A stretch of DNA of 64,000 bases from Halomarina litorea (GCF_024227715.1 NZ_CP100448.1:1426001-1490000), one strand, 5' to 3'; counted from the first letter of the stretch, positions 6,201 to 12,574 are shown. A program made the numbers and translations. The notes: generated from the letters alone by a model not told the origin.

Positions 6201-7322
6201 TCAGTCCTCGCCTCGCTCGCCCGCTCGTTTCTCCGCGCCGGTCGTCGGTGGTTCGTAGACGTACAGCAGGTCGTCGTGGACGACGTAGTAGGCGTCGCCG
6301 TCGGGGTCCTCCACGACGCCGCTGTCGGTGTCGATGGCGAAGTCCACGAGGTCGGCGAGCGAGTCGGCCTCCGCCCGCGGCCGGTCGAGCACCGTCTCGG
6401 GCAGGCGGATGCGAGTGATCCACTCGTCGAACTCCGCCCGGTCGCCCGCGTAGCCCAGTCGCTCCCGCTCCTCCGCGGACAGCCCGAACTCGTCGTCGCG
6501 CGCCGTGACCGCGACGGTACCGAGCAGGAGCAGCGAGGCGAGGAGGAATGCGGGGCCACCGAAGCGCTCCACGGGACCCGGTTCGTTCGGGACGACGACG
6601 GTGCGCTCGTCGGCGAAGCGCTCGCTCGCCGACCCGTTCCCCGCGATACGGTAGGCCGTTCCCAGTTCCAGCGGGAGGTCCCGGACGACGGTCCGATCGA
6701 CCTGCTCGCCGTTGACCGTCCCCTCCACGTCGATGCGCGCGCGGACGACGGCCTCCACCTGCCCGACGGTCCCACCGAGGTCCTCGGTGATGAGTTCGGT
6801 CCGGTTCTGCGCGGCGCTGACGTTCACGGAGAACGGGACGGCGACGCGCTCGCCCGGCGAGAGGCCCGCGACCTGCGTCCCGCCCAGTGGCTCCGTGCGC
6901 CGCCAGTACACCGTCGTGTTCCCGCCGCGTTCGCGGTCGACGGACTGGAGGACGAGGACCGTCCGCACGTCCGCCGAGAGGCTCCCGGAGTCGCTGGCCC
7001 CGTAGGTGTACGCGAAACTCCCGTTCAGCACCGGCGCGATGGCCGTGAAGTACGCCGACTGGTTGTGGAGCGTCGTCCCCACCTCGTACAATCGGTTCGG
7101 CTCGGTAACCGTCGCGTGGTGGTCGAAGGCCGTCCGCTCGGTCCACGTGCTCTCCACCAGCGTCTCCTCGTGCGTGCCGGGGGTCGCGTACCCGGTGTAC
7201 GTCAGCCACCCCCCCAGTAACCCGAGGACGACGAGCGCCACGACGACCACCGGCAGGTACGCCTCGACGTACCGCTGCGCCCGCAGTGTCCAGTCCGACA
7301 TGTCTGTTCGACTGTTCGTCAT
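6201..7322 (-). CDS. DUF5305 membrane protein
   Basis: This 373-residue protein has an N-terminal transmembrane segment (about 22-42, VVVVALVVLGLLGGW), a large extracytoplasmic beta-rich region with many Asn-X-Ser/Thr sequons, a second membrane helix near 280-300, and an acidic cytoplasmic tail. This is the DUF5305 layout, repeatedly found with SipW-like signal peptidases in haloarchaea. ATG 7322 was chosen because it lies 26 bases after the signal-peptidase stop; ATG 7301 (MSDWTL) is an alternative. It is the last gene of a three-gene minus-strand unit (secreted protein, peptidase, DUF5305). Its function is unknown; an accessory or chaperone role in fibre export is inference. Confidence 0.75.
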   Translation of the reverse strand: MTNSRTDMSDWTLRAQRYVEAYLPVVVVALVVLGLLGGWLTYTGYATPGTHEETLVESTWTERTAFDHHATVTEPNRLYEVGTTLHNQSAYFTAIAPVLNGSFAYTYGASDSGSLSADVRTVLVLQSVDRERGGNTTVYWRRTEPLGGTQVAGLSPGERVAVPFSVNVSAAQNRTELITEDLGGTVGQVEAVVRARIDVEGTVNGEQVDRTVVRDLPLELGTAYRIAGNGSASERFADERTVVVPNEPGPVERFGGPAFLLASLLLLGTVAVTARDDEFGLSAEERERLGYAGDRAEFDEWITRIRLPETVLDRPRAEADSLADLVDFAIDTDSGVVEDPDGDAYYVVHDDLLYVYEPPTTGAEKRAGERGED

Positions 7323-7348
7323 AGCGAGGTTAGTTAATGGCCGATTTC

Positions 7349-8518
7349 TCAGCCGAGCAACCTGTCGAGGCGGCGCGAGAACTTCGACAGCGTGGACCCC
7401 GTCTCGCGCGAGCGCTCGCGCACGCGACCCGACGGGGCAAACGGGAGCGTCAGCGCGAGGAACGCGCCCGCGAGTAGCGCGTCGATGACGACGATCGGTG
7501 CCCACGGGTGAAATTCGTAGAGGGCGTCGATGACGCCGCCCGGCAGGACGGCGAGGTAGCGGTGTTCGACCACGTACCGACGGTAGTAGCCCGTCTCGTC
7601 GGGCGCGGAGAGCGTCACGTCCGTCGTCGTCTCCTCGCCGCCCGCGAGGTGGAGTCGCTGGTCGGAGACGGCGACGCCCTCGCTGGCCGGTTCGACGTAC
7701 ACCTGCGCCGGGAGGAGGCCGCCGTTGCCGACGACGTACTCGTGGGTCTTCGACTCACCAACGGGGATGACGTCCGGGCGCTCGGACTCGAACTCCGCGC
7801 TCACGACGCCGTACTCCTGCGTCCCGCCGGGAGCGACCATCGCGGTGGTCGCCCCGACGACGATGAGGAGGGCGAACCCGACGAGGACGAGGCGCATCGG
7901 GACGCCCGTGTCGCGTTTCGTAGAGCGTGTGCGCCGTCTCACGGAGCCTTCGCGGTACCAGTCGACGACGTAGAACAGCCCCGCGAACGCGAAGAGGAGG
8001 TAGCCCAGTCCCTGCGCCCCGAGGAGCGAACGGGTGCCGAACAGGGAGGCGAGGGAGGTCTGGACCGTGGTGAGGACGCCCCGGATGCCCTCAACTGCGG
8101 TGCCGAGGTGCGGGATGACGACGACCTGTCCGTTTATCTGGAGAGCTTTGGCGACGATTTGGGCGTCCTTGACTGGTGGTTCGCTTTCCCCGTCTTGGTC
8201 AGTAAACGGGTTGGCGTCGCCCTGAGTGATATACCCCCTGGGTGTATCTCTCACGATTCTGTGGGTCACCAAACCGCCGTCGTGCAACTCTTCAGCGTCG
8301 TATGTAATTACGTCACCTGCCTCGGGGCTTCCCGCGAGAGCTATCGGTGCGGCAATGAATCCATCACCTTGATTCAACGTGGGTTCCATACTACCCGACT
8401 CGACAAATCCGATCAGGAACAGTTGTCCTGACGCCTGCACGAGAAGTAAGACTACGAGGAGTATTGCCACTCCTCCGACAGACTTGGACAAGAAATGAGG
8501 TAGTATCCGATCGCTCAT
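7349..8518 (-). CDS. SipW-like ER-type signal peptidase I
   Basis: This 389-residue membrane protease has an N-terminal helix (15-38) and a catalytic domain with Ser43 in SGSMEPTL, His86 in VTHRIV and Asp101 in TQGDAN. The Ser-His-Asp arrangement is that of archaeal and eukaryotic signal peptidases and of Bacillus SipW, not the bacterial Ser-Lys type. A membrane helix near 168-186, another near 210-230, a beta-rich extracytoplasmic domain (about 235-335) and a last helix near 345-365 follow, making it about twice the usual size. It lies between a short secreted protein and DUF5305, so it is probably a dedicated processing enzyme. The 5' half has lower GC than its surroundings. Confidence 0.88.
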   Translation of the reverse strand: MSDRILPHFLSKSVGGVAILLVVLLLVQASGQLFLIGFVESGSMEPTLNQGDGFIAAPIALAGSPEAGDVITYDAEELHDGGLVTHRIVRDTPRGYITQGDANPFTDQDGESEPPVKDAQIVAKALQINGQVVVIPHLGTAVEGIRGVLTTVQTSLASLFGTRSLLGAQGLGYLLFAFAGLFYVVDWYREGSVRRRTRSTKRDTGVPMRLVLVGFALLIVVGATTAMVAPGGTQEYGVVSAEFESERPDVIPVGESKTHEYVVGNGGLLPAQVYVEPASEGVAVSDQRLHLAGGEETTTDVTLSAPDETGYYRRYVVEHRYLAVLPGGVIDALYEFHPWAPIVVIDALLAGAFLALTLPFAPSGRVRERSRETGSTLSKFSRRLDRLLG

Positions 8519-8554
8519 CGAATGATAAACAAGTTGTTCTTGAGTGGGATACGA

Positions 8555-9070
8555 CTACGGGTACTGTGATTCGTCCGCTGCAATCGTTATCTCGTTGGGG
8601 ACGTCCGAGTACGAATTCTCTTGAAGAAGGAACGCAATAGTCACACCCACGCTTTCGCCGGGACCAACCGGAACCGCATCACCTGACGACTCCATCGTCG
8701 GGTAGGAGCTATTTTGTTCCTCAAAGAATTCCACCGCGGAGCTGCCTCCATCGTCGATCCAGAATCCCATCCCCGTGCCACCTCTGTTCCGAATCTCGAA
8801 GACTCCGTCAATCCGCGAATCCGCGTTTTTGTTGAGGCCCTCTCCACCAACGTTAGAATCCTGATTGAAGTTCAACTGGAGCGTCCCATTCGCAGATTCA
8901 CTAGCATAGGGGCTCGTCGAAACCAGCTGAATGAACGCGTTACTGTCGTTCGCTGTCGAAACATTCATCGACCGCTCTGCTCGGAAGTAGTTGACCGCAC
9001 CAGTCCCTGTTGCAGCTGCCCCCGCGGCAGCGAGCGATCCTGCACCGAGTAGGAATTTTCGCCGTTGCAT
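8555..9070 (-). CDS. AbpA/TasA-like secreted fibre protein (DUF1102-type)
   Basis: This 171-residue exported protein has a leader with RRKFLLGAGSLAAAGAAATG (3-22) followed by GTGAVNYFRAERSMNVST, the pattern of DUF1102/camelysin-like proteins in which a short hydrophobic leader precedes a strand beginning R-x-x-V/M-x-V. The mature part is beta-rich, with DSNAFIQL, NGTLQLNFN and VFEIRNRG blocks and a terminal TIAAD. Such proteins are related to Bacillus TasA and the Pyrobaculum bundling pilin AbpA, which polymerise by donor-strand exchange after SipW-type processing. The peptidase gene starts 36 bases downstream on the same strand. ATG 9070 fits the leader; a longer frame to 9244 has no leader logic. 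Assignment rests on pattern, not alignment scores. Confidence 0.68.
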   Translation of the reverse strand: MQRRKFLLGAGSLAAAGAAATGTGAVNYFRAERSMNVSTANDSNAFIQLVSTSPYASESANGTLQLNFNQDSNVGGEGLNKNADSRIDGVFEIRNRGGTGMGFWIDDGGSSAVEFFEEQNSSYPTMESSGDAVPVGPGESVGVTIAFLLQENSYSDVPNEITIAADESQYP

Positions 9071-9387
9071 CGTTGGTCTCACACGCACCGTCCGTGGCGC
9101 GCTTACCCAACCCGAGGACACATACCCGATTAGGAATATAGAGCCTCGGTAACTCAATAGAAATCCACCAGTTCTCGCAAACGCACCCTGTGGGGTCGTA
9201 TAGACACCCTCGAACGCCCGTAATCGGAGATTTATTCCGGGCACCGACGGTTTACCTTCCTTAACAATTGCATTTTCGACAGATAATTTCGCGTCAGATG
9301 CTCTGTATCACCTGATTTCCCGTGATAGAGACCCATACTTAAGTCTGACCATTCACCTCAAACACACGAGTTACGGGGGTATTCAGG
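9071..9387. other. AT-rich divergent intergenic region of the fibre module
   Basis: These 317 bases between the divergent secreted-protein and regulator genes hold no convincing gene. GC content is visibly lower than elsewhere in the window. catacttaagtc (9332-9343) is a plausible TATA region about 45-55 bases before the regulator ATG at 9388. Toward the minus-strand gene the stretch around 9120-9170 contains several AT clusters. No inverted repeat long enough to call an operator was recognised. Confidence 0.5.
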
Positions 9388-9978
9388 ATGAGCAACGCGA
9401 CGGCACGACTCGAACCCGACGAGGAGACACAGGAGGCAGAACTGACCGAAGCAGAGGTCTTCGACGTGTTGAGTAACCAGCGCAGGCGCTTCACCTACCA
9501 CTACCTGAAGCAGGCGGACTCGCCGGTGGTGGACCTGCGGCAGGTGGTCGACCACGTCGCGGCCTGGGAGTGCGAGAAGGAGGTGCGCGAACTCACGTCC
9601 GCCGAGCGCAACCGCGTCTCGACGGCGCTCCACCAGTTCCACCTGCCGAAGATGGACGACTGCGGGTTCGTGGAGTACGACCAGCAACGGGGGCACGTCG
9701 AACTGTCCGACCCCGCGACGGAACTGGAGGTGTACCTCGACGTGGTCCCCGGCCCGGACGTGCCGTGGAGCCGGTACTACATCGGGCTCGCGGGGGTGAA
9801 CGCCGTCGTCCTCGCGGGCGTCCTCGTGGACGTGGCACCCTTCTCCCTCCTGCCGCCGACGTCGTGGCTCGTCTTCCTCGTGGCCTCGCTCGTCGTCTCG
9901 GCGGCGGCGCACACCTACCTCACGCGCAGGATGCGCCTCGGGTCGGCCGACGACCCGCCGGGGCGGGTGGAGCGATGA
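9388..9978 (+). CDS. Membrane-tethered DUF7344 transcription regulator
   Basis: This 196-residue protein carries a haloarchaeal DUF7344 winged-helix domain (about 20-112: FDVLSNQRRRFTYHYL, ELTSAERNRVSTALHQFHLP, DDCGFVEYD). Two hydrophobic helices follow (about 130-150 and 158-178) and a basic end. The topology suggests a DNA-binding domain held at the membrane by its C terminus. Its stop overlaps the next ATG (ATGA, 9975-9978), coupling it to a second secreted protein. Position opposite the peptidase operon makes control of the fibre module likely. Ligand and target are unknown. Confidence 0.8.
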   Translation: MSNATARLEPDEETQEAELTEAEVFDVLSNQRRRFTYHYLKQADSPVVDLRQVVDHVAAWECEKEVRELTSAERNRVSTALHQFHLPKMDDCGFVEYDQQRGHVELSDPATELEVYLDVVPGPDVPWSRYYIGLAGVNAVVLAGVLVDVAPFSLLPPTSWLVFLVASLVVSAAAHTYLTRRMRLGSADDPPGRVER

Positions 9979-10577
9979 GCTTTCGCCTCCGACACCTCCT
10001 GCTCGTCTGCGCGGCGGTCTGTCTCGTCGTCGGCACCGGCGCCTTCTCCGCGGCGTCCGTCGACCGGGGCGTCTCGGTCAGCGTCGTCGAGGACGAGGAC
10101 GCCTACCTCGGACTGGAGATTCCCGACGAACTGCAGGTGGCGAGCGCGCGTCCCGGACAGGGCGGCGAATCTAGTGCCGGACCGCCCTTCGGGACCGATG
10201 CGGACACGCCGAACGAGGGGGAGGACCCGGGTGCGGGGACCGCCGCGCGGACGACCGGGACGGCCGCTGGGGTCGCCGAGCCACCGGGCCAGCGAGAGCG
10301 GACCGTCGTCTTGCTCCACGTAACCAACCGGTTCCGGACGCCCGTGGACGTGACCGTCGAACTCGACGCCGGGCCCGGGATGCCGCGAGTCGGCCCCGAT
10401 ACGCAGACGGTCGGCCTCGCGGTCGGGGAACGGGCCCCGGTGGATGTGTCGGTCACCTGTCCGGCGGATCGCCCCTCCGAGGTCCTCACGCTCTCCATCA
10501 CTGCTGTCGGTACCGACGGCGGTGACGGCGTCTCCGTCACGGCGACTCGTCAGGTCACCGTCTCCTGCGTCCGGTAG
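9975..10577 (+). CDS. Second SipW-dependent-type secreted protein
   Basis: This 200-residue exported protein has a leader helix (6-20) followed by GTGAFSAASVDRGVSVSVVE (20-39), which closely follows the consensus seen after the leader of haloarchaeal SipW-cognate proteins (TGAFS-x-x-x-x-DR-x-V-x-V-x-V). After DAYLGLE a low-complexity Gly/Pro/Thr/Glu linker (about 54-100) leads to a beta-sandwich-like domain (103-200) with strands LLHVTNRF, VDVTVELDA and VTATRQVTVS. The linker is unusual for a simple pilin and may make this an adaptor, cap or minor subunit. It is translationally coupled to the upstream regulator. The function is inferred from leader and context only. Confidence 0.62.
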   Translation: MSFRLRHLLLVCAAVCLVVGTGAFSAASVDRGVSVSVVEDEDAYLGLEIPDELQVASARPGQGGESSAGPPFGTDADTPNEGEDPGAGTAARTTGTAAGVAEPPGQRERTVVLLHVTNRFRTPVDVTVELDAGPGMPRVGPDTQTVGLAVGERAPVDVSVTCPADRPSEVLTLSITAVGTDGGDGVSVTATRQVTVSCVR

Positions 10578-12106: not shown

Positions 12107-12574
12107 ATGAGTTCCGAGCGAGAGCAGACGGATGGGTCGACGGGAACCGCACCGGACGTGGCGGACGGCGAGGCACCCGCCCGGGTCACTCGCGACGACG
12201 CGTACCACATCCTGCAGAACGAGCGCCGTCGTCGGGCGCTCGCGTTCCTCGCCGAGCGCGACTGGCTGGTGAACGTAGGGGTCGTCGCCGAGCACATCGC
12301 CGCCATCGAGAACGACGTCGACGTGGACGAACTGACCGCCCAGCAACGGAAGCGCGTCTACATCTCGCTGTACCAGGCGCACCTGCCGAAACTCGACGAA
12401 CACGGCATCGTCGACTACGACCAGTCGCGCGGCACCGTCGAACCCCTCCCCCTCCTGCGGGCGTTCGAACCGTACCTCGTGGAGGAGGACCTCGTCGCCC
12501 CGACCGCGTCCGAGCGACTCCTCGGGGGCGTCTCCGGCCTCGTCGGGATCGTCGGCGCGGCCTTCGGTCGCTGA
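12107..12574 (+). CDS. DUF7344 transcription regulator
   Basis: This 155-residue protein has an acidic, disordered N terminus (1-27) and a DUF7344 winged-helix domain (about 28-115) with the signature HILQNERRRRALAFLAE, LTAQQRKRVYISLYQAHLP and EHGIVDYDQ. The C-terminal segment VSGLVGIVGAAFG may be a short membrane-associating helix. It lies between gad and kdgK but faces away from kdgK, so a pathway role is possible yet unproven. The promoter region contains ctttattctag near 12020 and a weaker box closer to the gene. The family is common in haloarchaea, with few characterised members. Confidence 0.82.
   Translation: MSSEREQTDGSTGTAPDVADGEAPARVTRDDAYHILQNERRRRALAFLAERDWLVNVGVVAEHIAAIENDVDVDELTAQQRKRVYISLYQAHLPKLDEHGIVDYDQSRGTVEPLPLLRAFEPYLVEEDLVAPTASERLLGGVSGLVGIVGAAFGR

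Follow-up and report, generated by a model that had tools for sequence, protein, structure and literature searches.

Haloarchaea carry thin appendages called Tat-fimbriae (tafi), which, according to the passage of PMC12687288 that cites Galeva et al. (2025, iScience 28:111793), are exported by the twin-arginine translocation (Tat) pathway and have TafA as their core subunit. NCBIfam describes tafi by the four families TafA, TafC, TafE and TafF (NF052520-NF052523). Another point of reference is TasA, which, like SipW substrates, is exported by the Sec route. Donor-strand fibres related to TasA also occur in archaea (PMC9674648). The locus described here comprises five genes at positions 6201-10577 of a stretch of 64,000 nucleotides, hereafter the window, from the 3.88 Mb genome of the haloarchaeon Halomarina litorea (NZ_CP100448.1:1426001-1490000). 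An earlier note, made from the sequence alone, had recognized the same five genes and read them as a SipW/TasA (AbpA)-type surface fibre system with its own membrane-bound regulator. This was right in kind but wrong in family: a surface-fibre locus with its own peptidase and a membrane-bound regulator is well supported, whereas the nearest described system is tafi. Very probably, the locus is a compact member of the tafi superfamily that combines Tat and Sec export, a dedicated peptidase, a fibre made of the secreted protein P0003 and control by a DUF7344 protein.

In the sister locus L105, TafA (245.9 bits), TafC (552), TafE (222.6) and TafF (562.5) all exceed the cut-off of their families. 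The locus contains DUF5305, TafF, TafE, TafA, DUF7344, TafC and signal peptidase genes, and the DUF7344 gene and tafC overlap by four bases, as in the window. The helper set, that is the signal peptidase, the DUF5305 protein and the DUF7344 protein, is found in the tafi loci L104-L109 and is thus shared between the named fimbriae and the window.

The two short secreted proteins of the window show the leader pattern described earlier, to which a distinction between export routes can now be added. P0003, whose start is ATG 9070 (a longer open reading frame (ORF) with a GTG start was rejected), has the leader MQRRKFLLGAGSLAAAGAAATGTGAVNYFRAERSMNV, with a twin-arginine stretch (MQRRKFLLGAG), a weak h-region (Kyte-Doolittle 1.39) and a predicted GTGA cleavage region. 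Pfam TAT_signal matches this leader with an E-value of 0.47 only; the RR leader is present in 38 of 41 P0003-type proteins. The leader of P0005 (...VVGTGAFSAASVDRGVSVSV) has no RR, a Kyte-Doolittle value of 2.57 and a Sec-like character. P0003 scores above the cut-off for Pfam DUF1102 and matches the NCBIfam model “TafE family fimbrial adapter protein” at 8.9e-15 (54.9 bits, cut-off 155), while P0005 matches TafC at 4.6e-6 (26 bits, cut-off 410). Homology to the Taf families therefore holds at the superfamily level, and it extends to all aligned relatives: TafE is matched by each of the 41 P0003-type proteins, four of which come from canonical tafi loci, and TafC by all 25 positional homologues of P0005 (window counted). 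In P0005, a low-complexity linker rich in glycine and acidic residues (about 50-107) is followed by a C-terminal beta domain with two conserved cysteines. P0003 is also related to PDB 9P0A, a solved structure with three identical chains known here by its label “Pilin”, both when searched alone (4.2e-7, about 150 residues aligned) and as a family profile (6.5e-34). Our literature search found no paper naming 9P0A, none on DUF1102 and none joining any two of DUF5305, DUF1102, DUF7344, SipW and haloarchaea.

The helper proteins fit the descriptions given in the earlier note. The signal peptidase belongs to TIGR02228, archaeal signal peptidase I (63.4 bits, cut-off 51.85), but matches the NCBIfam SipW model weakly (33 bits, cut-off 190) and is no SipW equivalog. 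Its proposed Ser-His-Asp residues, S43, H86 and D101, do not vary across the 44 sequences aligned. There are three hydrophobic segments (9-27, 210-228 and 342-360), and the second exported domain, which is immunoglobulin (Ig)-like or ASH-like, lies between the last two (about 229-341), with a weak ASH match at residues 251-310. The DUF5305 protein is a member of PF17231 (7.5e-53, 179.6 bits against a gathering score of 29) and consists of an N-terminal membrane segment (9-27), an outer domain, a second membrane segment (248-266) and a cytoplasmic tail; the most likely start of its gene is 7301 or 7322. The DUF7344 protein (PF24035, 4.1e-29, 101.2 bits against a gathering score of 27.8) combines a winged-helix-like N-terminal domain with two C-terminal membrane segments (132-150 and 161-179). 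Next to the membrane it carries the motif VPWSRYYIGL, which is found in 35 of the 51 DUF7344 proteins of related loci and corresponds, in the alignment of the family, to a conserved juxtamembrane stretch, LEVYLDVVPGxDIPWSxYYLGL. The viral contigs searched held no relative of P0004.

DUF7344 is a large family in this genome, with 32 matches as compared with two for DUF5305; neither profile matches the control genomes, except Haloferax volcanii for DUF7344. A second protein of the fibre-linked DUF7344 subfamily, with a PW..YYLGL motif, is encoded at G000:C1:2424434-2424997 (L158 8363-9004). This gene is solitary: no signal peptidase, DUF5305 or Taf-like gene was found within 8 kb of it. The host also has a second cluster of signal peptidase and DUF5305 genes (L047, G000:C1:1867830-1870900), which is devoid of DUF7344, encodes two small secreted proteins with Sec leaders, one of them a weak TafE match (E 0.0026), and is flanked by PAS/response-regulator-like genes; its peptidase sits on a distant branch of the tree.

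The five genes form a conserved module that is widespread in haloarchaea, mostly in the same divergent order. We compared 49 related loci (window counted), picked by similarity to the peptidase or to TafA, in which genes were called as mechanical ORFs and scored by profiles built on the proteins of the window. DUF5305 is present in 45 of them, DUF7344 in 41 and secreted subunits in 45. Since the genome as a whole has only two DUF5305 and 32 DUF7344 matches, i.e., about 0.01 and 0.13 genes expected per 16-kb stretch, this association is not due to chance, and the neighbourhood survey proposed earlier thus bears out the linkage of the five genes. A secreted gene lies directly downstream of the regulator in 36 of the 49 loci. 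The divergent arrangement had been considered non-standard, but a subunit gene is divergent from the regulator in 35 of the 49. Many relatives carry additional subunits and also a TafF-like gene ahead of the peptidase, whereas the window has neither. The five-gene form also occurs outside the genus (L004, L063, L065 and L066). On a broader scale, of the 96 genomes of good quality in the family, 80 contain a relative of the peptidase; for DUF5305 the count is 158 of the 194 genomes in the class. In a class-wide sample centred on DUF5305, 23 of the 30 best-scoring loci have the peptidase no more than about 1.5 kb away. Plasmid-borne pairs of signal peptidase and DUF5305 genes also exist in haloarchaea (L008, L010, L011, L012 and L014), two of them near partition or replication genes.

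How does the window relate to the canonical tafi loci? In the peptidase tree, the ten loci of the canonical tafi type group together (100/96), while the window and its genus neighbours (100/99) are placed elsewhere, among the divergent class. Both classes can be found in one genome, as in G037 (L063 and L105) and G099 (L084 and L109). Because each of these genomes holds one locus of each class, the two are paralogous systems and not alleles. The window is thus a compact, paralogous variant of the known tafi system, in a gene-order class separate from the named one. In TafF-type proteins (L104 10370-11554 and relatives), an outer part resembling DUF1102 is accompanied by a Thr/Pro-rich linker and by hydrophobic segments at the C-terminus. 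This build suggests that they anchor the canonical fibre in the membrane; the window locus has no protein of this type.

Several observations weigh against a tafi-type fibre. The genome contains no match to TafA or TafF, although TafF is unmatched in every control genome as well. P0003 and P0005 both stay under the Taf equivalog cut-offs, so that neither is a tafi member at the curated level. Finally, AlphaFold models of P0003 and P0005, built on input alignments of two sequences each (window and L004), are all-beta but of low confidence (pLDDT 45 and 49). Foldseek/VIA-align searches with these models returned only generic Ig-like matches; that TasA, AbpA and 9P0A are not listed among them is uninformative, given the low confidence of the models.

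It is quite improbable that the locus encodes a biofilm fibre of the genuine TasA/AbpA type, with donor-strand assembly and a SipW peptidase, in other words a member of the TasA/camelysin family. The weak SipW match of the peptidase and the archaeal occurrence of TasA-related fibres would agree with such a system, as would the end of the P0005 leader, where small-Ala-Phe places an aromatic residue after the cut and resembles TasA, with its Phe at P2' in the account that a passage of PMC10269814 gives. However, the TasA/camelysin family PF12389 (Peptidase_M73) has no match in the genome at E<=1 and none among 41 subunit sequences, even though the Bacillus subtilis control matches, and membership in this family is rejected on these grounds. 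In addition, the P0003 leader is of the Tat rather than the Sec type, and the nearest named families are Taf. No AbpA chain turned up in the PDB sequence searches, which were not a direct comparison with AbpA.

Quite improbable, too, is a secreted, membrane-tethered sensor or enzyme module, in which the peptidase would process two small Ig-like proteins that are retained in a surface complex with DUF5305 and signal to DUF7344. A single TafE-like subunit gene in the absence of TafA and TafF could be explained in this way, DUF7344 and DUF5305 are indeed membrane proteins encoded side by side with the subunits, and loci with several paralogous substrates could sense different ligands. Against this, the solved “Pilin” that P0003 matches, alone and as a family profile, has three identical chains, and the same helper genes accompany bona fide tafi subunit genes.

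Sister species within the genus differ in what they carry at the same chromosomal site. The locus lies between genes for a 2-keto-3-deoxygluconate (KDG) aldolase and a gluconate dehydratase. G052 has the full locus between the same two genes, and in G053 the full locus adjoins the gluconate dehydratase. At this site the DUF7344 gene of G055 is still intact, but P0005 is broken and DUF5305 is reduced to a tail (weak, E 0.03); G056 retains a P0005 together with one half of DUF7344, the C-terminal one. An ORF of about 460 codons occupies the space between aldolase and dehydratase in G054 and G051 (L119 6332-7717, L120 8289-9683); the G054 copy is a GntP permease by Pfam, a test made in L119 only, and the G051 copy looks like the same gene. 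This series suggests that at least two lineages have lost the fibre genes while the regulator persisted longer. The eroded copies of these genes in two sister species speak against insertion as the sole explanation of presence and absence. A decaying tafi-type locus with no functional fibre in this strain, as the compact set and the remnants or permease in sister species might suggest, is very improbable, since all five genes are intact, the same set persists in the same place in G052 and G053 and the five-gene form recurs beyond the genus.

The genes of the window are organized in two divergent transcription units (Table 1). On the minus strand, P0003 is followed by the signal peptidase and DUF5305 genes; on the plus strand, the ATG of P0005 overlaps the stop codon of the regulator gene (ATGA). 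The 317 bases between the two units are A+T-rich, with 50 % GC as compared with about 70 % around, and a search for palindromes that might serve the regulator gave short imperfect inverted repeats only.

Table 1. Features of the five-gene locus, in coordinates of the window
Feature	Position	Strand	Evidence
DUF5305 membrane protein, 366 aa	6201..7301 (start 7301 or 7322)	-	PF17231
ER/SipW-type archaeal signal peptidase	7349..8518	-	TIGR02228; Ser43, His86, Asp101
P0003, TafE-type secreted fibre subunit, 171 aa	8555..9070	-	TafE, DUF1102, PDB 9P0A “Pilin”
Intergenic region, presumed promoters and regulator targets	9071..9387	.	sequence, GC
DUF7344 regulator	9388..9978	+	PF24035; C-terminal membrane segments
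P0005, TafC-like secreted protein	9975..10577	+	TafC match; homologues at same position

The flanking genes encode a KDG aldolase-type protein (DHDPS family), a glucose dehydrogenase, a gluconate/galactonate dehydratase-type protein and a KDG kinase-type protein. A further DUF7344 protein, without the juxtamembrane motif, is encoded at 12107-12574 of the window, adjoining the KDG kinase-type gene, and its gene is retained at the same site in the sister species G053, G055, G056 and G057.

From these elements a plausible pathway can be drawn. To judge from the leaders, P0003 would be exported by Tat and P0005 probably by Sec, and the dedicated ER/SipW-type peptidase would cut both leaders near GTG-A-F/V. 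Mature P0003 may then polymerise into a thin surface fibre; most likely, its freed N-terminal strand (xxADRxVxV) would insert into the beta-sandwich of the next subunit, by analogy with TasA and the archaeal bundling pili (PMC9674648). The TafC-like P0005 might be a minor subunit at the tip or base, or of the adhesin type. DUF5305, as an anchor or chaperone, and the extra outer domain of the peptidase could hold and guide the growing fibre at the membrane, and the membrane-anchored DUF7344 protein would control the divergent promoter pair. Like the earlier note, we infer that the fibre assembles by donor strands and that the regulator senses its state at the membrane. Rather doubtful is the further idea that members of the membrane-anchored DUF7344 subfamily, recognizable by the juxtamembrane motif PWSxYYLGL, act in archaea as one-component transcription regulators of the membrane, which would sense the state of fibre assembly, through DUF5305 or unassembled subunits, and set the expression of the divergent subunit operon accordingly, in a tafi class distinct from the characterised one.

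The recently named tafi can now be tied to a defined helper set, made up of a peptidase with an extra outer domain, DUF5305 and a membrane-tethered DUF7344 protein, which offers concrete candidates for the assembly and regulation of Tat-exported fibres in haloarchaea. A second paralogous class with another gene order is widespread in the haloarchaeal family and can occur alongside the canonical class, and a single chromosomal site within one genus provides a natural series of gain and loss.

Among the known systems, Pyrobaculum AbpA is an archaeal donor-strand fibre, as mentioned in the passage of PMC9674648 that cites Wang et al. (2022). Bacillus sipW-tasA has in common with the window a dedicated ER-type signal peptidase and a small secreted beta protein (PMC9674648), but differs from it by Sec export as opposed to the Tat leader of P0003, and no TapA is seen in the window. 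The homology between the 9P0A “Pilin” and P0003 takes in the leader and the larger part of the mature sequence. In comparison with tafi, the window has no TafA, no TafF and a different gene order, its TafC-like protein lacks the LamG-like C-terminal part of tafi TafC, and its signal peptidase lies on a separate branch from the canonical loci. Nevertheless, window and tafi share an ER/SipW-type signal peptidase with an extra outer domain, DUF5305, DUF7344, the overlap of the regulator gene with tafC, a Tat leader on the subunit and homologous subunits.

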